This document shows positions 735 through 18,057 of a DNA stretch of 64,000 nt, piece after piece. Made by a program: the position numbers and the translations under genes. Under the pieces are notes generated by a model. It was given only the letters and a program-made list of their open reading frames with translations, did no database searches and was not told where the DNA came from. Each line of letters begins with the position of its first letter. Position 1 is the stretch's first letter. Source of the stretch: Pseudomonas sp. HOU2 (GTDB lineage Bacteria; Pseudomonadota; Gammaproteobacteria; Pseudomonadales; Pseudomonadaceae); NCBI RefSeq assembly GCF_040729435.1, contig NZ_CP160398.1, positions 930,001 through 994,000 of the forward strand, given 5' to 3'.

Positions 735-1580
735 ATGCTCTGCCACGTCGAAACTACCACCGAACCCAACACCGAACCCAACGCCCCCGCACCGCAACCG
801 TCACAGGTGGCGTTTCGTGAATACCTGCCGCACGCCCCGCTCTCGCACGTCGCCCTGGCCGCGGAAATCGCTCTGGCGATCACCTTCAATGGCCTGAGCC
901 AGGCGGTGATGATGGTCTCGCCCGGCAACCTCGAAGACTTCATCCGGGGCTTCGCCCTGAGCAACGCGATTATCGACAGCGTTGACGAGATCTACGACAT
1001 CCGCCTGAGCCATTTCGATCAAGCCTGTCAGGCTGACGTGCAGATTTCCAGCCGCGCGTTCTGGGCGCTGAAAGATCATCGTCGGCAAATGGCCGGCACC
1101 AGCGGCTGCGGCATTTGTGGCGTCGAGGCGCTGGAGCAGGCGTTGCCGCAACTGCAGATTCTGCAACCCTGCGCGCTACCGCCGGCTGCGCATTTCGACG
1201 GTATCCGCCAACGTATCGAACAGGCCCAGCAACTGGCCCGCAGCAGCGGCGCCCTGCACGCGGCGCTGTACTTCGATGCCAGCGGTGAAGCGCTGCTATG
1301 CCGCGAAGACATCGGCCGGCACAACGCCCTCGACAAGCTGATCGGCGCGATGCAAATCGCTGACGTCGATGCGCGTCAGGGCTTCGTGGTGGTCACCAGC
1401 CGTTGCAGCCTGGAGCTGATCCACAAAGCCGTGCGGGCCCGCCTCGGCACCCTCGTCAGCCTGTCCGCCCCCACCGCGTTGACGGTGCGTTGGGCACTCA
1501 AGCATCGGCTCAATCTGATCCACGTTCCGCACCGCAACGCCCCCCGAATCTACAGCCCGATCCAGGAGCTTTCAGCATGA
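735..1580 (+). CDS. fdhD: Formate dehydrogenase accessory sulfurtransferase FdhD
   Basis: FdhD passes sulfur from the cysteine desulfurase IscS to the molybdenum cofactor of formate dehydrogenase, which is inactive without it. The 281-residue protein has the family's conserved CxxC pair in GTSGCGICG (Cys125 and Cys128), which forms the flexible sulfur-carrying loop, and the later [14 protein letters not shown] segment typical of the family. Length matches FdhD proteins, with a Pro/Thr-rich N-terminal tail of about 25 residues that may or may not be translated, since no strong ribosome site precedes the ATG. Its stop overlaps the moaC start (ATGA), so fdhD heads a molybdenum-cofactor operon. 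The formate dehydrogenase itself is not in the window. Confidence 0.93.
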
Positions 1581-2068
1581 GCAACACCCTCACCCACCTC
1601 GACGATCAGGGCCGCGCCAACATGGTCGACGTCAGCGACAAAGCCGCGACCCGCCGCGAAGCCACGGCGCAAGCCTGGGTGCAGATGCGCCCGGAAACGC
1701 TGCAGATGATCCAGGCCAACGGTCACCCCAAAGGCGACGTTTTCGCCGTGGCGCGCATCGCCGGGATTCAAGCGGCCAAGCGCACCCACGAACTGATCCC
1801 GCTGTGTCACGCGCTGCTGCTCAGCTCGATTCACGTTGAACTCAAGGCCTGCGAACCGGACCGCGTGCAGATCACCAGCACCTGTCGCCTCACCGGCCAG
1901 ACCGGCGTCGAACTCGAAGCCCTGACCGCCGCCAGTGTCGCGGCGCTGACGATCTATGACATGTGCAAAGCGGTGGACCGGGCGATGGTCATCGGCGACA
2001 TCCGCCTGCTGAGCAAACAGGGCGGCCGCTCCGGACACTTTCAATGGGAGGACGCGCAATGCTCCTGA
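1577..2068 (+). CDS. moaC: Cyclic pyranopterin monophosphate synthase MoaC
   Basis: MoaC converts the 3',8-cyclo-GTP made by MoaA into cyclic pyranopterin monophosphate, the first stable intermediate of molybdopterin. The 163-residue product carries the family signatures [19 protein letters not shown] and MCKAVDRAM. Asp128 and Lys131 in the last motif match the known active-site residues of the E. coli enzyme. The ATG overlaps the fdhD stop by four bases, and the 3' end overlaps the moaD start, so fdhD, moaC, moaD and moaE are probably co-translated. No moaA is seen here; it must be encoded elsewhere. Confidence 0.96.
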
Positions 2069-2310
2069 TCAACTACTTCGCCAGCTACCGTGATCGCCTG
2101 AATCTGGGCGGGGAAAAAATCCCCCTGAGCGACAACCTGCGCAGCATCGAGGATGTGCGGCAGATGCTCATGGCGCGCGGTGAGGAATGGCGCGAAGTGC
2201 TCGGCGCCGGCAACCTGATGTGTGCGTTGAATCAGGAGCTGTGCCAACCGAGCGCGGCGATCGAAGACTTCGACGAGATCGCGTTTTTCCCACCGGTCAC
2301 CGGGGGCTGA
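2059..2310 (+). CDS. moaD: Molybdopterin synthase small (sulfur-carrier) subunit MoaD
   Basis: This is the ubiquitin-like sulfur carrier of molybdopterin synthase. It has 83 residues and ends in the required Gly-Gly tail, which is adenylated by MoeB and then thiocarboxylated before donating sulfur within the MoaD-MoaE complex. Its ATG lies inside the last codons of moaC (10-base overlap) and its stop is two bases before the moaE start, so it is part of the same translationally coupled unit. Confidence 0.95.
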
Positions 2311-2312
2311 GC

Positions 2313-2774
2313 ATGACGGTTCGAGTCCAGTACAAAAGCTTCGACGTCGGCCAGTTGACCGCCGACCTGCATGCGCGCAATCCACGGGTCGGCGCGGTGG
2401 TGAATTTCATCGGCTATGTGCGTGATCTGAACATCGGGCAGAGCGTGAACGAGCTGTTTCTCGAGCACTATCCGGGCATGACCGAAAAAGCCCTCGAACA
2501 GATCGCCGAAGAAGCGCGCCAGCGCTGGCCGCTGCTGGGGGTCGAGATCGTGCATCGGGTCGGTGCGCTGGCGGTCAGCGAGCCGATCGTGTTCGTCGGT
2601 GTCAGCAGCAAACATCGGCACATGGCGTTCGAGGCCTGCGCGTTCATCATGGACGTGCTCAAGACCCGCGCGCCGTTCTGGAAGCGTGAGAGCACAGCGC
2701 AGGGTTCGCATTGGGTCGAGGCGCGGGAGAGTGACCAGAATGCGGCGCTGCGCTGGAGTCTGGCGCATACCTGA
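2313..2774 (+). CDS. moaE: Molybdopterin synthase catalytic subunit MoaE
   Basis: MoaE binds cyclic pyranopterin monophosphate and, with thiocarboxylated MoaD, inserts the two dithiolene sulfurs to give molybdopterin. The 153-residue protein contains the VGAVVNFIGYVRD start strand, the SSKHRHMAFEA motif and the conserved lysine region VLKTRAPFWKRE that lines the active site. It closes the fdhD-moaC-moaD-moaE operon. A REP-type inverted repeat follows the stop. Confidence 0.95.
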   Translation: MTVRVQYKSFDVGQLTADLHARNPRVGAVVNFIGYVRDLNIGQSVNELFLEHYPGMTEKALEQIAEEARQRWPLLGVEIVHRVGALAVSEPIVFVGVSSKHRHMAFEACAFIMDVLKTRAPFWKRESTAQGSHWVEARESDQNAALRWSLAHT

Positions 2775-2784
2775 AGAGCAAAAG

Positions 2785-2961
2785 CCCCTCACCCTAGCCC
2801 TCTCCCCGAGGGAGAGGGGACTGGTTGGGGGATATTGAAGAAATTCACCGAATTGAAAGATTGGCTCTGAATCCATAATCGACTCGATCTTTCAGGTCGA
2901 TGGATAACGCCAGACACCTCGGTCGGCCCCCTCTCCCTCTGGGAGAGGGCTGGGGTGAGGG
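2785..2961. repeat. Long inverted repeat of the CCCTCACCC...CTCTCCC family
   Basis: An arm with CCCCTCACCCTAGCCCTCTC and a hairpin tail at 2785-2825 is answered by the complementary arm ending GGCTGGGGTGAGGG at about 2925-2961, with some 100 bases between that include a short GATTCGA-type internal motif. The same element, with similar internal sequence, recurs at 23942-24118 and 41343-41502. All three sit between genes and look like one dispersed non-autonomous element. Confidence 0.8.
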
Positions 2962-3014
2962 TTGAAAGTCTGATTAGATAGCCACTCCGCCAGAATTAAA
3001 CTCCGGAGTCTCGT

Positions 3015-4358
3015 TTGAGCACAGCGCCCAACAACCTGCCCCGCCCCGCTCCCGTCACGCTGCGCCAGGCCTGGCGCTTCTGGCTGAAACTCGGCTGCAT
3101 CGGTTTCGGTGGCCCGGCCGGGCAGATCGCGATCATGCATCAGGAACTGGTCGAGCGCCGGCGCTGGATCTCCGAGCGACGTTTCCTCCATGCACTCAAC
3201 TACTGCATGTTGCTGCCCGGCCCCGAGGCCCAGCAACTGGCAACGTACATTGGCTGGCTGTTGCATCGTACCTGGGGCGGGGTGATTGCCGGGGCGCTGT
3301 TCGTGCTGCCGTCGCTGGTCATCCTGATTGCGCTGTCGTGGGTGTACATCGCGTTTGGCGATGTGCCGGTGGTGGCCGGGATCTTCTACGGGATCAAACC
3401 GGCGGTGACCGCGATTGTCTTGCACGCGGCACATCGCATCGGCTCGCGAGCGCTGAAAAACAGTTGGCTGTGGGCGATCGCCGGGGCGTCATTCGTGGCG
3501 ATTTTTGCCTTCAATCTACCGTTCCCGCTGATTGTGCTCGGTGCCGCGTTGATCGGCTATGCCGGCGGGCGACTGGCACCGCAGCGCTTCGACAATCGCG
3601 GGCAGCGCAGCAGCGGCAAATCCTTCGGCCCGGCGCTGATCGATGACGACACGCCAACACCTGAACATGCGCGCTTCAGCCTGCCGAAGCTGTGGCGTCT
3701 GCTGCTGGTTGGCGCGGCACTGTGGTGTTTACCGATGGCGCTGCTGACCGCACTGTTCGGCTGGGACGGTACGTTGACGCAAATGGGCTGGTTCTTCACC
3801 AAGGCTGCGCTGCTGACCTTCGGCGGCGCTTACGCAGTGTTGCCGTATGTCTATCAGGGCGCGGTCGGGCATTACGGCTGGCTGACGCCGACGCAGATGA
3901 TCGACGGCCTCGCCCTCGGCGAAACCACGCCCGGGCCGTTGATCATGGTGGTGGCGTTTGTCGGTTTCATCGGCGGCTACGTGCAACCGGCGTTCGGCGC
4001 GGAACATGCGTTCGCCGCCGGTGCACTGGCGGCGACGCTGGTGACCTGGTTCACCTTCCTGCCCTCGTTCCTGTTCATCCTCGCCGGCGGGCCGCTGGTG
4101 GAATCGACCCACAACGAACTGAAGTTCACCGCACCGTTGACCGCGATCACCGCAGCGGTGGTCGGGGTGATTCTCAACCTGGCGTGTTTCTTCGCTTACC
4201 ACGTGTTCTGGCCGAGCGGTTTTGCCGGGCACGCGGATCTGTTTTCGATCGGACTGGCGCTGCTGGCCGCACTGGCGCTGTTCATTTTCAAGCGCGGTGT
4301 GATTGAAGTGTTGATCGTTTGCGCACTCGCCGGGCTGGGCTTGCATCTCATGCGCTGA
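3015..4358 (+). CDS. chrA: Chromate transporter, ChrA family (two-domain)
   Basis: This is a 447-residue integral membrane protein of the CHR family, which exports chromate or related oxyanions from the cytoplasm. Two homologous halves are visible: an N-terminal CHR domain with GCIGFGGPAGQIAIMH and MLLPGPEAQQLATYIG, and a C-terminal one with FFTKAALLTFGGAYAVLP and GETTPGPLIMV, joined by a hydrophilic linker near residues 195-225. The start is TTG at 3015, chosen because GGAG at 3005-3008 lies at proper spacing and no ATG fits. It is a lone gene, without a chrB regulator next to it, so its physiological substrate is inferred from the family only. Confidence 0.9.
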   Translation: MSTAPNNLPRPAPVTLRQAWRFWLKLGCIGFGGPAGQIAIMHQELVERRRWISERRFLHALNYCMLLPGPEAQQLATYIGWLLHRTWGGVIAGALFVLPSLVILIALSWVYIAFGDVPVVAGIFYGIKPAVTAIVLHAAHRIGSRALKNSWLWAIAGASFVAIFAFNLPFPLIVLGAALIGYAGGRLAPQRFDNRGQRSSGKSFGPALIDDDTPTPEHARFSLPKLWRLLLVGAALWCLPMALLTALFGWDGTLTQMGWFFTKAALLTFGGAYAVLPYVYQGAVGHYGWLTPTQMIDGLALGETTPGPLIMVVAFVGFIGGYVQPAFGAEHAFAAGALAATLVTWFTFLPSFLFILAGGPLVESTHNELKFTAPLTAITAAVVGVILNLACFFAYHVFWPSGFAGHADLFSIGLALLAALALFIFKRGVIEVLIVCALAGLGLHLMR

Positions 4359-4874: not shown

Positions 4875-6239
4875 ATGAAATTCGCAGCCATCGAAGACGC
4901 ACGCCTGTTCCTTGAACAAAACCCCGACATCGACATGATCGAACTGTTCATCCTCGACGCCAACGGCGTGCCACGCGGCAAGTTGTTGCACCGCGAAGAA
5001 CTGCTCGCTGTCTATGAAAGCGGTCGTCCGCTGCCCAGCACCATCCTCGGTCTGACCGTGCAGGGCGAAGACGTGGAAAACTCCGGGCTGGTGTGGGACG
5101 TCGGCGACATCGACTGCCGCGCCTACCCGCTCGAAGGCAGTCTGGTGCGCTTGCCGTGGCGACAGATTCCGACCGCGGCGGTGCAGGTCAGCATGCACCC
5201 GACCGAGGGCTTGCCAGCGAGCATCGCCGACCCGCGTCATCTGCTGATCAAAGTCATCGACGGCCTCAAAGCCGAGGGTTATCACCCGGTCATGGCCTGC
5301 GAGCTGGAGTTCTATCTGCTCGACGCCAAACGCGATCACAACGGTCGCCCGCAACCGGCACTCGATGCCGACGGTGGCCGACCGCGACACACGCAGGTCT
5401 ACGGTTTGCGTGAACTGGAACAGATCGAACCGTTCCTCGCCGACCTCTACAGCGCCTGCAAACTGCACGGCATTCCGGCGCGCACGGCGATCTCGGAATA
5501 CGCCCCGGGCCAGGTGGAAATCACCCTCGAACACGGCGACGCATTGCTCGCGATGGATCAGGCGGTGCGTTACAAACGCCTGGTCAAAGCCGTGGCACAC
5601 AAACACGGCATGCAGGCGACATTCATGGCCAAGCCGTTTGATGATCTGGCCGGCACCGGCATGCACATGCAAGTCAGTCTTGCTGATGGCGAGGGGCGCA
5701 ATCTGTTCGCCGCCGAGGACCCGGCGGGCACCCCGCTGCTGCGCACGGCGATTGGCGGGATGCTCGCCTCGCTGCTCGATACGCTGCTGCTGTTCTGCCC
5801 CAACGCCAACTCCTACCGCCGCTTCCAGGCCAACAGCTACGCGCCGTTGGCGCCGACCTGGGGCGTCGACAACCGTACCGTCAGCCTGCGCGTACCGGGC
5901 GGCCCGGCCAACACCCGGCACATCGAACACCGCATCTGCGGCGCCGATGCCAACCCGTATCTCGCAGCCGCCGCGATCCTCGCCGGCATCCATCGCGGGA
6001 TTCGCGAAAAGCTTGATCCGGGCGCGCCGGTCGAGGGCAATGGCTACGCGCAAGCCAAGACGTTGCTGCCGACCGATTGGCTGACCTCGCTGCAGGCGCT
6101 GGAAAACTCGGTGTGGGCGCGGGATGCCCTGGGCCAGGAATTTCTCGGGGTGTATCTGGCGGTGAAACGTGCCGAGTACCGGCAGTTCATGGCCGAGGTG
6201 GGTGAGCAGGATTGGCGTTGGTATCTGACCGAAGCCTGA
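4875..6239 (+). CDS. Glutamine synthetase-family gamma-glutamylpolyamine synthetase (PauA/PuuA-like)
   Basis: A 454-residue class of glutamine-synthetase fold protein that joins glutamate to an amine using ATP. In Pseudomonas such enzymes (PauA/Spu family) act on putrescine, cadaverine or spermidine. The ATP/glutamate motifs are visible: ELEFYLLD, GTGMHMQVSL, VDNRTVSLRV and the RICGADANPYLAAAAILAGI region. It lacks the adenylylation loop of true GlnA. The ATG at 4875 is preferred over the TTG six bases upstream. The following gene is a PuuB-like FAD oxidase, which makes the gamma-glutamylpolyamine role likely; the exact amine is not decidable here. A second such pair is at 24144-25520 and 21062-22345. 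Confidence 0.85.
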   Translation: MKFAAIEDARLFLEQNPDIDMIELFILDANGVPRGKLLHREELLAVYESGRPLPSTILGLTVQGEDVENSGLVWDVGDIDCRAYPLEGSLVRLPWRQIPTAAVQVSMHPTEGLPASIADPRHLLIKVIDGLKAEGYHPVMACELEFYLLDAKRDHNGRPQPALDADGGRPRHTQVYGLRELEQIEPFLADLYSACKLHGIPARTAISEYAPGQVEITLEHGDALLAMDQAVRYKRLVKAVAHKHGMQATFMAKPFDDLAGTGMHMQVSLADGEGRNLFAAEDPAGTPLLRTAIGGMLASLLDTLLLFCPNANSYRRFQANSYAPLAPTWGVDNRTVSLRVPGGPANTRHIEHRICGADANPYLAAAAILAGIHRGIREKLDPGAPVEGNGYAQAKTLLPTDWLTSLQALENSVWARDALGQEFLGVYLAVKRAEYRQFMAEVGEQDWRWYLTEA

Positions 6240-12727: not shown

Positions 12728-12895
12728 GCGCGGTTCCGTCCGTGGGTTAGGCTTTACAACTTGTTTCGCAGTCTACGTCGTGGTGCCGATGGGGGGAACC
12801 ATTGGCGATGAGATGCGGACGGACAACTGAAATGGTTCAATCCACCCTCTTTTGTGTAACATTTCCAAAACAGCGTATTTACAAGGATGTTCACC

Positions 12896-13426
12896 GTGTC
12901 AGGAAAACCTGCTGCTCGAGTTACTGATCCAACCTCCTGCCCGCTCCCTGGGCATGGAGTCAATCCAATCGCCGTGGGCTCACCCGACGTTTTTATGGAT
13001 GGCTTACCTGCAGCCCGCCAGAACGATAAGAGCGCTTGTGGCAGCCCGATCGTGGGAGACGTCGCTTCCACCGTGCTCATCAACGGCATGCCTGCTGCAA
13101 CCGTGGGAAGTGTCGGAGGTCACGGCAATAAAGTAATCGCCGGCTCATCAACTGTAATTATCGGAAATTCGCACACGCCCGCGGAATTCGTCCCTCCATC
13201 AGCCATGCCTCTCTGGGCCATGAAATTTGACGAAAAATTTTGCATCGTTGGGAGTGACGGCCAGCCCCTCGCCAATGTGCCATACCACATCAAGGACGAA
13301 GCAGGCAGGGTTTATACAGGCTTCTCTGATGAAACTGGGCACACACCTCGTATCGCAACCAGCAAGCAAGAAACTCTTGAAGTTACAACCGGTGTAGCCG
13401 CGCTGGAAAAATGGGAGGAAGCATGA
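12896..13426 (+). CDS. PAAR-domain protein, T6SS spike tip/effector carrier
   Basis: PAAR proteins cap the VgrG spike of type VI secretion and carry toxins. This one has 176 residues. The PAAR repeats are clear: PAARVTDPTSC, GLPAARQNDKSACG and GMPAATVG within about residues 4-95, followed by an extension of about 75 residues with a beta-rich FCIVGSDGQPLANVPYHIKDEAGRVY module. A GTG start at 12896 is chosen because AAGGA at 12883-12887 lies 8 bases upstream; the in-frame ATG at 12887 would overlap that site. Its stop overlaps the next start (ATGA), so the toxin is coupled to it. No VgrG or T6SS core gene is nearby. Confidence 0.88.
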   Translation: MSGKPAARVTDPTSCPLPGHGVNPIAVGSPDVFMDGLPAARQNDKSACGSPIVGDVASTVLINGMPAATVGSVGGHGNKVIAGSSTVIIGNSHTPAEFVPPSAMPLWAMKFDEKFCIVGSDGQPLANVPYHIKDEAGRVYTGFSDETGHTPRIATSKQETLEVTTGVAALEKWEEA

Positions 13427-15577: not shown

Positions 15578-15862
15578 TTAACCACCGCCGTTACCCCCAC
15601 TGCTGCTACCGGTCGGTTGACCCGCAGGGCTGGGCTTGGAGGCAGAAGGCACCGGCCCATTGTCGGTCTTGCCACCATCACCACCCTTAGGCAGCGAATT
15701 GGCATCCGGATCGGCGTTAGTGGCAGGAGACGCCGGGTCGCGAGTCTGGCTGTTGCCGTCGTTCGCCGTTGGGGTCGGCGTCTCGCCCGCCGCGATCGCA
15801 TACAGCGAACTGCCGGACAGCAACGCCGCGAGGGTAAACACCGCAATTTTATGGTTCAGCAT
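15578..15862 (-). CDS. Exported low-complexity protein, Pro/Ser/Gly/Asp-rich
   Basis: A 94-residue protein starting with a signal peptide (MLNHKIAVFTLAALLSGSSL then YAIAAG). The mature 70 residues are low-complexity, rich in Pro, Thr, Ser, Asn, Asp and Gly, ending SSGGNGGG, and look disordered. This is a known style of small Pseudomonas periplasmic or surface protein of unknown role. It is convergent with the Cys-rich secreted protein gene. Confidence 0.65.
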   Translation of the reverse strand: MLNHKIAVFTLAALLSGSSLYAIAAGETPTPTANDGNSQTRDPASPATNADPDANSLPKGGDGGKTDNGPVPSASKPSPAGQPTGSSSGGNGGG

Positions 15863-16000
15863 GGTGGCTCTTCCTTTGCGTGGTGAGTTACAACATTGGA
15901 AGAAGGTGCGCGGCGAAGGTGCGGTGTGTCGGACGAATGGTTATCGCCCGGTAGATTCGCCCAATTTCGATATCTGAAAACTTCGTAGGAAAGCACTCCA

Positions 16001-16135
16001 CGTGGCGAGGGAGCTTGCTCCCGCTGGGCTGCGAAGCGGCCCCTAAACCCGATAGTCCGTTTCTCCCGGATATGCCACAGGCCGCGAATTACGCCGACTG
16101 CGTCGCCGAGCGGGAGCACGCTGCCTCGCCACAGG
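16001..16135. repeat. REPIN inverted pair, right arm degraded
   Basis: GTGGCGAGGGAGCTTGCTCC at the left is answered by GCGGGAGCACGCTGCCTCGC at the right, which differs from the intact family arm at two positions. The rest of the 15863-16300 gap contains no gene that I can support. Confidence 0.8.
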
Positions 16136-16300
16136 TACGCGTTTCACATCCTACAGGTTGGTTGTGACTGGTGAAATTAATGCCTAGAGTGGGGTTGTCG
16201 CTGAGCAAATTCAGCACCAGGGTTTCGCAGCCCTGACGATACGTGTAGTAACCTAGCGCCTCCTAAAAACGGTGGCGGTCGCACTAGCGCCCGAAATCCG

Positions 16301-16438
16301 CTCAATGGTGGCTGTGTGTGGGAGACCTTCGGGTCTGCCGGGTTCCTCGTATCCTCGGTCTGCGAACCCGCACATGGCTACCACCCTTCGACTCGCAGCG
16401 AATGGCAGTGGCTTCTCTCCCAGATACGAGGAAGTTTT
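16301..16438 (+). promoter_or_regulatory. Structured mRNA leader able to mask the Shine-Dalgarno of the next gene
   Basis: Upstream of ATG 16439 the SD is GAGGA at 16428-16432. The 11 bases that contain it, 16423-16433, are the exact reverse complement of 16343-16353 (TTCCTCGTATC), so the ribosome site can be fully paired. Just before lies a perfect hairpin AGACC-UUCG-GGUCU (16323-16336), enclosed by longer arms TGTGTGGG (16315-16322) with CCCGCACA (16367-16374) and GGTGG (16307-16311) with CCACC (16381-16385). A competing stem GGGTTC (16340-16345) with GAACCC (16364-16369) would free the SD. This is the form of a riboswitch, thermometer or sRNA target. I recall similar leaders before DUF6124-type genes in other Pseudomonas, but cannot verify that here. 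Confidence 0.65.
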
Positions 16439-16729
16439 ATGCCTACGGACAAGCCGCTCCACCACTACGCAAAAATGTCCCACCCCGCCACCGATAATGC
16501 CGTACTTCTCATAGACGCCGATGCCCCATTGCGCGAACTCCACGCCTGCCTCGCCGAACGCCTCAACGCCGTCCTCAAATACCTCGACCTCATCGCCTGC
16601 ACCAGCCTCCCCGATTACGCCGAACATGACATCAACACTGTGACCAACATCGCCAGGATCATGGTGCAGGATGTCAGTGATGTGTTTCGGGTGATTGAGC
16701 AGCGTGGGTTTGGTGCATCCGCAGAGTAG
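16439..16729 (+). CDS. Small DUF6124-like cytoplasmic protein
   Basis: A 96-residue soluble protein with an all-helical look: DAPLRELHACLAERLNAVLKYLDLIA and INTVTNIARIMVQDVSDVFRVIEQ. It resembles DUF6124-type proteins common in fluorescens-group Pseudomonas, often in several copies, although it is shorter in the N-terminus; that assignment is from memory. ATG 16439 is used because GAGGA precedes it at six bases; the frame stays open back to GTG 16316, but that part coincides with the structured leader. Function unknown. A short stem-loop follows the stop. Confidence 0.65.
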   Translation: MPTDKPLHHYAKMSHPATDNAVLLIDADAPLRELHACLAERLNAVLKYLDLIACTSLPDYAEHDINTVTNIARIMVQDVSDVFRVIEQRGFGASAE

Positions 16730-16751
16730 AGCGATCACCAGAACATAAAAA

Positions 16752-16771
16752 GCCTGCGATGCTGCAGGCTT
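16752..16771 (+). terminator. Short stem-loop after the DUF6124-like gene
   Basis: AGCCTGC / GCAGGCT with a six-base loop, preceded by an A-run and followed by only two T. It is more an A-side signal than a textbook terminator, but it stands 23 bases after the stop. Confidence 0.5.
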
Positions 16772-16920
16772 CTGATCTGATGGTTATTCGGTCCTACAAA
16801 AAACGGGATGTCACGAGGGCCCCAAATGAAATAATTCAGACTCGCGTTGGTCGTGAAAAAGTTCTAAAATTCTAAAAAATTTGCAACTCTGGATTTAAAG
16901 CTTTACAAGATGCTTTAACA

Positions 16921-18057
16921 ATGAACTCACTTACATATCCCTCAAGGATGACGAGCGCAGCGATGGACGATACAACCAACGATAGCCAAAAACCAACAGA
17001 TCGCGTACATGGCCCGCGAACCAAGCGCATAAAAAGCTATTGGGAGCCAATATACGACCCAAAATTTAAAGGTACGACTAGCGTTTTTCTGTGGGATACG
17101 CGAAAGACAACCGGGGTTAAAGCAGCGCTTTGTAAATCTGAAACTCTTAAAAAATTGCTATCAACAGTTGGAGCCAGAGGCTGGACGATTAAATCTTATG
17201 GATTTACCGATTGCGACTTTATCGGACACTTCGACCCAGGACTTGCATTTAACAGCTGTAACTTTGAAAACTGCGACCTAGGCTCAACTACTTGGAGAGG
17301 AACCAAGTTTACCAACTGCACATTCAAAAAATGTTCATTTACACTAGCCACATTTGAACAATGCCAATTCAATAGTTGCAGCTGGACTAACTCAGGACTC
17401 TCAGGAACAGAAACCAAACTCTTTGACACTGTGGTGGGAAATCCCGAAAACTTCATCAACTCTGGATACACTAACTCAGACATTAACGTCCTTAGTCAAA
17501 ATGGCAGCACAACACCTGCCTATCAACTAATGCGACTCGAAGAAACAAAAATGAAACTGGCTCGCGCAGTTCTTTCAAACAACGAAAGAAATGCCGAGGA
17601 CTCCGTCTATTACGAGTCCGTGAAAGTTTATCTTCTTCAAGCGCTCAAAGCAAAACAACAACAACTACTACATCAATACAGCAACAAACAGAACAGAATT
17701 CGCAGCGCAGGAAGTATATTGCTATGCAAACTTGAAGAGTTTGTAATTGGCGTTTCTGGCATGCTGAATGGCTGGGGAGGAAATCTCGCCCGAGCAACTT
17801 TCATCGGAATAGTACTGATGGCGATATTCGCTGTAGCCTACTTCACATTAGGGCGACAAGAGACGACTCCACTCACATGGAAATTAGCACTGATAAAATC
17901 TTTTGACATCACGCTACTTGTAGGCTACACAAAACACGCCACTGCGGCCCTAGGTTGGAAAACTCAAGCTTTATATGGTGCCAACGCGCTGCTAGGACTC
18001 TGGTGGTATGCAATATTCGTCCCCACAGTAATCAATCGAATTTGCAGGGTACGCTAA
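16921..18057 (+). CDS. Pentapeptide-repeat protein with C-terminal two-helix channel-like module
   Basis: A 378-residue protein. Residues about 95-165 form a pentapeptide-repeat beta-helix (FNSCNFENCDLGSTTWRGTKF style, with Phe and Cys recurring every five). A helical linker (KMKLARAVLSNN, KVYLLQALKAKQQQLLHQY) follows. The end has a membrane helix near 289-311, a short re-entrant-like segment with LLVGYTK (V334-G335-Y336), and a last helix ALLGLWWYAIFVPTVINRI, the layout of 2-TM ion channels of the K+ type but with a non-standard filter. A/T-rich codon use sets it apart from the flanks. Its TAA overlaps the next ATG (TAATG), so the two are coupled. The function is not known. Confidence 0.72.
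   Translation: MNSLTYPSRMTSAAMDDTTNDSQKPTDRVHGPRTKRIKSYWEPIYDPKFKGTTSVFLWDTRKTTGVKAALCKSETLKKLLSTVGARGWTIKSYGFTDCDFIGHFDPGLAFNSCNFENCDLGSTTWRGTKFTNCTFKKCSFTLATFEQCQFNSCSWTNSGLSGTETKLFDTVVGNPENFINSGYTNSDINVLSQNGSTTPAYQLMRLEETKMKLARAVLSNNERNAEDSVYYESVKVYLLQALKAKQQQLLHQYSNKQNRIRSAGSILLCKLEEFVIGVSGMLNGWGGNLARATFIGIVLMAIFAVAYFTLGRQETTPLTWKLALIKSFDITLLVGYTKHATAALGWKTQALYGANALLGLWWYAIFVPTVINRICRVR

Follow-up and report, generated by a model that had tools for sequence, protein, structure and literature searches.

In phages P1 and P7, C4 antisense systems are laid out in the order a1/b1 - C4 - a2/b2 - gene, which is also the order found in the unit analysed here. According to the passages on phage C4 RNAs in PMC5320573, C4 is cut by RNase P, its b' element partly occludes the ribosome site of the target and its a' element gives upstream specificity; GGT/GGW is reported there as the RNase P cut motif of phage and Acinetobacter baumannii C4 RNAs, and parts of PMC12197685 also cover the C4 mechanism, the RNase P cut and specificity. 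C4 RNAs were thus already known, as were 21 C4-like sRNA copies in one A. baumannii genome (in the relevant part of PMC5320573). In Gifsy-1, as described in the sections of PMC4825925 on IsrK, the upstream IsrK RNA activates translation of the long IsrK form, and downstream of it there is a processed RNA.

Here, we analysed the leader of a gene encoding a 96-residue protein in a stretch of 64,000 nucleotides of Pseudomonas DNA (the window). Judging from its sequence, this leader looks like a chromosomal C4 antisense unit, a known RNA class rather than a riboswitch.

A C4 antisense RNA in front of a 96-residue gene

A preliminary description of this DNA had reported an exact 11-base complement to the Shine-Dalgarno (SD) region, a UUCG hairpin with long enclosing arms and an alternative GGGTTC/GAACCC stem, and had proposed that two exclusive folds form a translational switch. 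Direct reading confirmed the first of these features: TTCCTCGTATC at 16343-16353 is the exact reverse complement of GATACGAGGAA at 16423-16433, and each string occurs once on the + strand of the 64-kb window. When 16301-16441 was shuffled by mononucleotide 20,000 times, its last 25 bases had an exact 11-base complement elsewhere in the segment in 2 cases. The UUCG hairpin is perfect (AGACC-TTCG-GGTCT), the enclosing arms (16306-16322 with 16367-16383) are there too, and the fold of 16301-16460 had a z of -2.18, with 7 of 200 shuffles folding as well. An Rfam scan then gave these elements an identity, since 16301-16388 matched the C4 antisense RNA family over its whole model (RF01695, 78 bits for a gathering score of 45, model positions 1-87 of 87), so that the enclosing arms correspond to the C4 closing stem, the UUCG hairpin to the first C4 hairpin and the anti-SD to the b' loop.

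The window contained two Rfam matches over gathering, C4 and P10. The P10 match (Rfam's Pseudomonas sRNA; 12919-12990) falls within a same-strand PAAR gene (12887-13426), and a further P10 match is at 4976-5047 of L073; the Rfam P10 family may be protein-coding sequence.

The preliminary description overlooked a further set of pairings, in which a' (CTGCGAA) complements a1 over 7 nt and a2 over 6 nt, in addition to the 11 nt of b':SD and 6 nt of b':b1 (Table 1). Both a' and b' are therefore complementary to an SD-containing target. A permissive Rfam scan of 16001-16800 also detected the upstream target family c4-a1b1 (RF03163) with an E of 0.0057, at a score (21.6 bits) under the gathering score of 46.7 that membership would require, the 7-nt a1:a' match being present. 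The array a1/b1 - C4 (a', b') - a2/b2 thus resembles that of phage P1/P7. C4 is an RNA that folds independently and is probably processed; members of its family are expected as a species of about 77 nt whose 5' end RNase P makes, and here a GGT near the start is the candidate 5' end of the mature form. Further upstream, a promoter-like pair of hexamers stands 6 nt before the 5' hairpin, under the threshold of the promoter scanner, and would place the transcription start near 16196.

Table 1. Positions of the elements of the C4 unit in the window
Feature	Position	Strand	Basis
Promoter-like TTGTGA - 17 nt - TAGAGT	16162..16190	+	8/12 consensus matches, read from sequence; putative function
c4-a1b1-like upstream target: 5' hairpin and a1 hairpin	16184..16238	+	RF03163, 21.6 bits, under gathering
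a1, TTCGCAG	16224..16230	+	complement of a' 16360-16366
b1, GATACG	16238..16243	+	complement of part of b', weak in the window copy (6 nt)
C4 antisense RNA, full length	16301..16388	+	RF01695; fold covariation over 26 own-genome copies
GGT, putative 5' end of mature C4	16307..16309	+	sequence; motif from part of PMC5320573
UUCG hairpin adjoining closing stem	16323..16336	+	all 5 pairs with double changes across 26 copies
b' loop	16342..16354	+	16343-16353 complementary to SD
a' segment	16360..16366	+	complementary to a1 (7 nt) and a2 (6 nt)
a2, TCGCAG	16393..16398	+	complement of part of a'
b2, containing the SD sequence	16423..16433	+	complement of b'
96-residue target gene	16439..16729	+	Pseudomonas family without Pfam match; model of an extended segment plus helical hairpin

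The C4 fold and the alternative stem fared very differently when the copies of this RNA in the same genome were compared. In 26 of the 27 copies (L034, whose hairpin is lost, was dropped), the closing stem and both hairpins of C4 were kept by covariation: 95.4% of cells were paired over 27 pairs, 14 pairs had changed on both sides, and the covariation score was 0.455 against 0.245 in shuffled alignments (0 of 500 shuffles). Both arms of the GGGTTC/GAACCC stem exist in the window copy (16340-16345 and 16364-16369), but the stem showed no covariation across the copies, with 64.7% of cells paired against a shuffled mean of 65.5% and a score of 0.105 against 0.120, leaving the idea of a mutually exclusive switch unsupported. 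When the window C4 was folded alone, the second hairpin of the Rfam structure was absent and the predicted minimum used part of the GGGTTC/GAACCC stem. The predicted probability of SD:b' pairing was 0.002 in the predicted leader (16196-16500) and 0.87 if folding starts at 16301. Direct masking in cis is therefore not predicted, because in the predicted full leader the SD is engaged in other pairings and C4 adopts a fold of its own; such a picture would suit an RNA that is processed and acts in trans better than a switch in cis.

The gene behind this RNA belongs to a family of which 297 relatives were found at E<=0.001. Among the 120 of them that were listed, names point to Pseudomonas, save one row labelled Bacillus subtilis, and 7 proteins are annotated with more than 110 residues. 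Many of these 120 are named fructose-bisphosphate aldolase in public databases, which is surely a misnomer at such a length and without a Pfam match. The start at ATG 16439 is supported by an ATG at the equivalent place in 77 of 80 homologous loci. An N-terminal extension from 16316, which the preliminary description had kept as a possible true protein, is open in the window but not conserved, because 41 of 71 C4-positive leaders carry an in-frame stop within 138 nt upstream, the window being among the 30 that do not. The same description had called the gene DUF6124-like. We rejected this assignment, as the window protein matched no Pfam family and hhalign gave a probability of 0.5% against DUF6124 (PF19619). 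An AlphaFold model of the window protein (pLDDT 68, pTM 0.47) has a helical hairpin (31-54 / 59-88) and no PDB match at E<=0.001. A model of a DUF6124 protein (P0121, 99% identical to the L024 protein; pLDDT 77, pTM 0.47) has a C-terminal helical hairpin (62-86 / 89-114) and no viral match at E<=0.001, and its alignment had no PDB sequence match at E<=1. The helical-hairpin topology that the two models seem to share is suggestive only.

C4 units of the genome and of the genus

A search with the Rfam models returned 27 C4 loci in the same genome, all over the cut-off, and 24 a1b1 (RF03163) matches, 13 of them over the cut-off. By coordinates, all but one of these 24 adjoin a C4 on its upstream side; the exception, at 3110136, is without C4, and four C4 loci (the window, L021, L032 and L034) have no listed a1b1 match. 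By script, the 5' hairpin was detected in all copies except the window, L032 and L034 (24 of 27), and TANNNT lies 4-9 nt before it in 24 of 24 (shuffled mean 1.1, maximum 6 in 2,000 shuffles); the -35-like hexamers come from reading by eye. An open first gene with a normal start is present in 23 of the 27 units (96-133 codons; 22 ATG and 1 TTG, in L029). Broken first genes are found in L011 (open, start codon ATA), L025 (frameshift), L027 (early stop) and L030 (gene gone), and in L034 the gene is open and the b' loop of C4 is lost.

DUF6124, which is not the family of the window gene, is frequent in these units: by coordinates, C4 immediately precedes 20 of its 27 matches in the genome, 4 more stand second in a C4 unit and 3 are without C4. 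Two of the three DUF3077 matches also follow a C4, and the gene at 5612851 matches both families. Among the 12 of 23 open C4-controlled proteins that were scanned, the window's included, 8 matched DUF6124 and 1 matched DUF3077 at E<=0.1. In L016, L017, L019 and L011, a second DUF6124 match (partial in L011) stands in tandem behind the first, which suggests partner proteins.

Genes of the DUF6124, DUF3077 or window families also occur with an a1 hairpin and without C4 (L115, 3110136, L067, L070-L073, L080 and L099); in L070-L073 and L080, the place of C4 seems by eye to be occupied by a different hairpin. These genes are possible trans targets of sibling C4 RNAs. In L117, a gene matching DUF6124 and DUF3077 (1337-1675, - strand), with no C4 match, is divergent from a CI/LexA-like HTH/S24 repressor gene (1729-2466, + strand), an arrangement that hints at damage- or phage-linked control of the DUF6124/DUF3077 family.

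At 20 of 26 fetched loci of this genome, one long flanking ORF each was chosen by length and place. Fourteen of these 20 had a Pfam match at E<=1e-10, mostly to ordinary chromosomal families, with one VgrG-type (L032) and one Tle1-like (L014) gene, and neither integrase nor capsid genes were found among the 14. Three of the 27 units lie near type VI secretion genes: the window's, with the PAAR gene mentioned above, L032 (VgrG, 1072-3087) and L014 (Tle1-like, 4896-6173). Directly downstream of the window unit is a Hailong anti-phage pair (16921-18749 and 19028-19849), with matches to HalA (NF051894, 392 bits) and HalB (NF051895, 249.5 bits), followed by an FRG-domain gene that matches the PADLOC candidate PDC-S15.

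C4 was present in 184 of 199 sampled Pseudomonas genomes, at most 20 loci being counted in each; in a smaller sample of the genus, 35 of 39 genomes carried it (34 over the cut-off), with up to 42 loci, well within a limit of 84, and a median of 13; in the rest of the class, it was detected in 23 of 368 genomes, 22 with 1-6 loci and one with 10 (limit 11), all of these counts pooling phage-type and chromosomal units. C4 loci of phage type do occur: three Pseudomonas phage stretches carry C4, and in one locus of another genome (L125) a Bro-N gene follows it.

Pairing codes and their rewriting

The longest Watson-Crick run was then computed between each b' loop and its own as well as all other SD regions of the 27 loci. 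Cognate pairs had a mean run of 6.81 against 4.29 for non-cognate pairs, a difference matched by 0 of 20,000 permutations, although such counts, here and below, are not probabilities because paralogues and compared sets share ancestry. The own SD was best in its row in 20 of 27 loci, uniquely in 14. Runs of at least 6 were found in 22 of 27 cognate and 83 of 702 non-cognate pairs, the run of 11 in the window exceeds the non-cognate maximum of 8, and the five loci with cognate runs below 6 are L010, L018, L028, L030 and L034. The three other pairings behaved alike, each with 0 of 20,000 permutations: 6.89 against 3.96 for a':a2 (row-best 24 of 27, uniquely 9), 7.07 against 4.91 for a':a1 (23 of 27, uniquely 9) and 6.19 against 4.45 for b':b1 (13 of 27, uniquely 8). 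Mean duplex energies were also lower for cognate pairs, at -12.0 against -6.8 for b' with SD (row-best 14 of 27), -21.3 against -15.3 for loop plus a' with a2b2 (13 of 27) and -30.3 against -19.7 for the same segment with a1b1 (21 of 27).

All 26 intact b' loops differ from one another, L034 being left out, and there are 17 different a2 match strings among these loci, so each unit is expected to recognise mostly itself. On paper, this privacy is partial, because the cognate SD is best in its row in only 20 of 27 loci by run and 14 of 27 by energy. Some a' segments are common to several loci, and among the upstream targets that of L013 beats the window's own for the window C4 (-30.9 against -27.5 in duplex energy).

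Two further sets gave the same picture. The best 80 of 160 loci encoding a relative of the window gene gave, with the window, 81 leaders, 72 of which contain the motif of the second C4 hairpin. Their 35 distinct b' loops, some near-alike, had a mean cognate run of 7.2 against 4.81 (0 of 20,000 permutations; row-best 25 of 35). Thus, of the two stems that the preliminary description wanted examined for covariation across homologues, b':SD passed and GGGTTC/GAACCC did not. In the nine leaders without the motif, an a1 hairpin is still visible by eye in seven and absent in two (L097 and L103), whose protein match begins at residue 13. Rfam, at its gathering score, detected C4 in none of these nine and in all eight motif-positive homologues submitted. 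The second set comprised 29 loci, the best-scoring one from each of 29 other Pseudomonas genomes, with 0 of 20,000 permutations for every pairing: 8.17 against 4.78 for b':SD (row-best 22 of 29), 6.93 against 4.52 for a':a2 (29 of 29), 6.86 against 5.44 for a':a1 (22) and 6.79 against 4.59 for b':b1 (16).

How codes diverge can be read from the close paralogues L011, L016, L017 and L019, in which the genes are 94% identical, promoter plus a1 95%, the C4 backbone 88-92% and a2 93%, and identity falls to 61% in the b' loop, 56% in the SD region and 45% in the b1 spacer (gaps counted as differences). Each of the four retains a b':SD match of 6 to 10. Likewise, among own-genome copies, 10 pairs have genes that share more than 80% identity; their b' loops average 59% and the remainder of C4 84%, for 51% over all pairs of b' loops. 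The b elements have thus changed together next to a conserved gene and backbone, and the pairing code has been rewritten jointly after duplication. Selection for private codes would be the natural reading of this pattern.

Proposed mechanism and comparison with known systems

With a probability of roughly 0.88, we consider that the locus as a whole is a chromosomal C4 antisense unit. The sequences themselves establish the identity and fold of C4, the triple complementarity, its co-variation among paralogues and homologues and the joint recoding. A single transcript from about 16196 would run through the a1/b1 target, C4, the a2/b2 target and the gene for the 96-residue protein, and C4 would be excised from it, its 5' end probably being cut by RNase P. 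Pairing of the b' loop with the SD (b2) and of a' with a2 would then keep translation of the gene off, both on its own transcript and on those of siblings sharing its code, and the upstream a1/b1, which bears that code too, would probably compete for C4 as a decoy by which the block is set or relieved. We favour such a repression with an a1/b1 competitor because of the published accounts of phage C4, Gifsy-1 IsrK and Burkholderia cenocepacia (in the relevant parts of PMC5320573, PMC4825925 and PMC4603805).

The alternative that survives best, which we nevertheless hold to be unlikely, is an RNA-activated ON switch, in which a short a1/b1 RNA binds C4 within the long transcript and frees the SD, as IsrK does in Gifsy-1 according to the IsrK sections of PMC4825925. 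That a1/b1 carries the code in the run test on this genome's loci would suit this scheme, as would an isrK match (RF01394) overlapping a1b1 in a Pseudomonas phage and the terminator-like sites found between a1b1 and C4 in 12 of the 29 loci from other genomes (shuffled mean 0.2) and in 2 of the 27 own loci (L025 and L026; shuffled mean 0.15). No such site was found in the window copy, however, and the window b1 pairs over just 6 nt. Terminator-like sites are not confined to phage-type units, because L129 has one together with a DUF6124 gene. In nine loci of other genomes with such a site (L122, L123, L126, L128, L131, L133, L137, L141 and L146), an ORF of 52-54 residues follows C4; the four that were scanned (L122, L123, L128 and L131) had no Pfam match.

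Somewhat more doubtful is a control like that of P4 CI, in which C4 pairing would mainly halt transcription, either through loss of translation or through a terminator becoming exposed, and the block would bear on elongation and not on initiation. P1 C4 does cause transcriptional polarity. Moreover, P4 CI RNA pairs with seqA and seqC, up- and downstream of itself (as stated in part of PMC4825925). Against such a control, b' pairing falls in the SD region, with runs of at least 6 in 22 of 27 copies, and no terminator-like site was found on the + strand in 15800-17200. It is very improbable that the units are decaying phage remnants without present function: several copies are indeed broken (L011, L025, L027, L030 and L034), but SD complementarity is maintained through the turnover of the loops, the first gene remains open, with a normal start, in 23 of 27 units, and 14 of 20 flanking genes have Pfam matches, with no integrase or capsid among them. 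Least probable is a ligand riboswitch or an RNA thermometer that alternates between two exclusive folds, which was rejected despite a stable fold and the presence of both stems in the window copy, as the alternative stem lacks covariation, only C4 and P10 pass Rfam gathering in the window and the recognition loop varies far more than a ligand pocket would.

For the chromosomal C4 unit that we favour, what stands of the translational switch is an SD-masking RNA leader and its RNA-operated variant. On this view, the hope that the leader would give a handle on what the protein family senses fails, because the code looks like self-recognition and not like ligand sensing. We tentatively propose, as a conjecture we would not yet bet on, that the autonomous antisense units of Pseudomonas chromosomes form a birth-and-death family devoted to self-recognition, in which b1, b' and b2 are rewritten jointly after duplication with promoter, C4 body and gene unmoved, each copy silencing itself and incomers of the same code, not its siblings. 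If true, phage heteroimmunity would have been turned into a chromosomal, genus-wide and diversifying system of RNA identity.

In the articles searched, we found no link of C4 to DUF6124/DUF3077, no per-locus target and no joint recoding, no mention of DUF6124, and no C4 RNA with antisense in Pseudomonas fluorescens. Our results suggest an answer to an open question, namely that the targets of multi-copy bacterial C4 RNAs are their own neighbours; the evidence for these targets is co-variation, seen within this genome, among homologues and in other genomes of the genus. They tie two orphan families, DUF6124 and DUF3077, to one regulator and provide a natural set of dozens of antisense pairs with largely distinct codes, in which recoding after duplication can be studied base by base.

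Among the closest described systems is the c4 immI operon of phages P1 and P7 (RF01695 with RF03163), which has the same C4 fold, a b' that masks the SD, an a' that binds just upstream and a specificity set by few bases (as described in part of PMC5320573). In contrast to P1/P7, the present units are chromosomal, with 27 copies in this one genome and ordinary flanking genes where tested, and their target is a DUF6124/DUF3077 or unnamed small protein instead of icd/ant; the window unit accordingly has neither an icd/ant antirepressor downstream nor a phage setting, its gene being without Pfam match. In Gifsy-1 IsrK / orf45-anrP, an upstream RNA likewise shares complementarity with a downstream processed RNA (STnc1160), which is followed by a small ORF, but in that system the short RNA upstream is an activator and a terminator exists, whereas none was found in the window copy (compared with the IsrK sections of PMC4825925). 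The B. cenocepacia ncS23/ncS24 also combine isrK and C4 in one transcriptional unit, as seen by dRNA-seq, but at a single locus (according to the part of PMC4603805 on these RNAs). Finally, the Group 1 sRNAs of A. baumannii are likewise numerous, with 21 C4-like sRNAs in one genome, variable loops and a read coverage suggesting processing at GGW; their targets were left open in the passages of PMC5320573 that describe them, whereas in the present genome every C4 is directly followed by a target that matches it, as co-variation supports.
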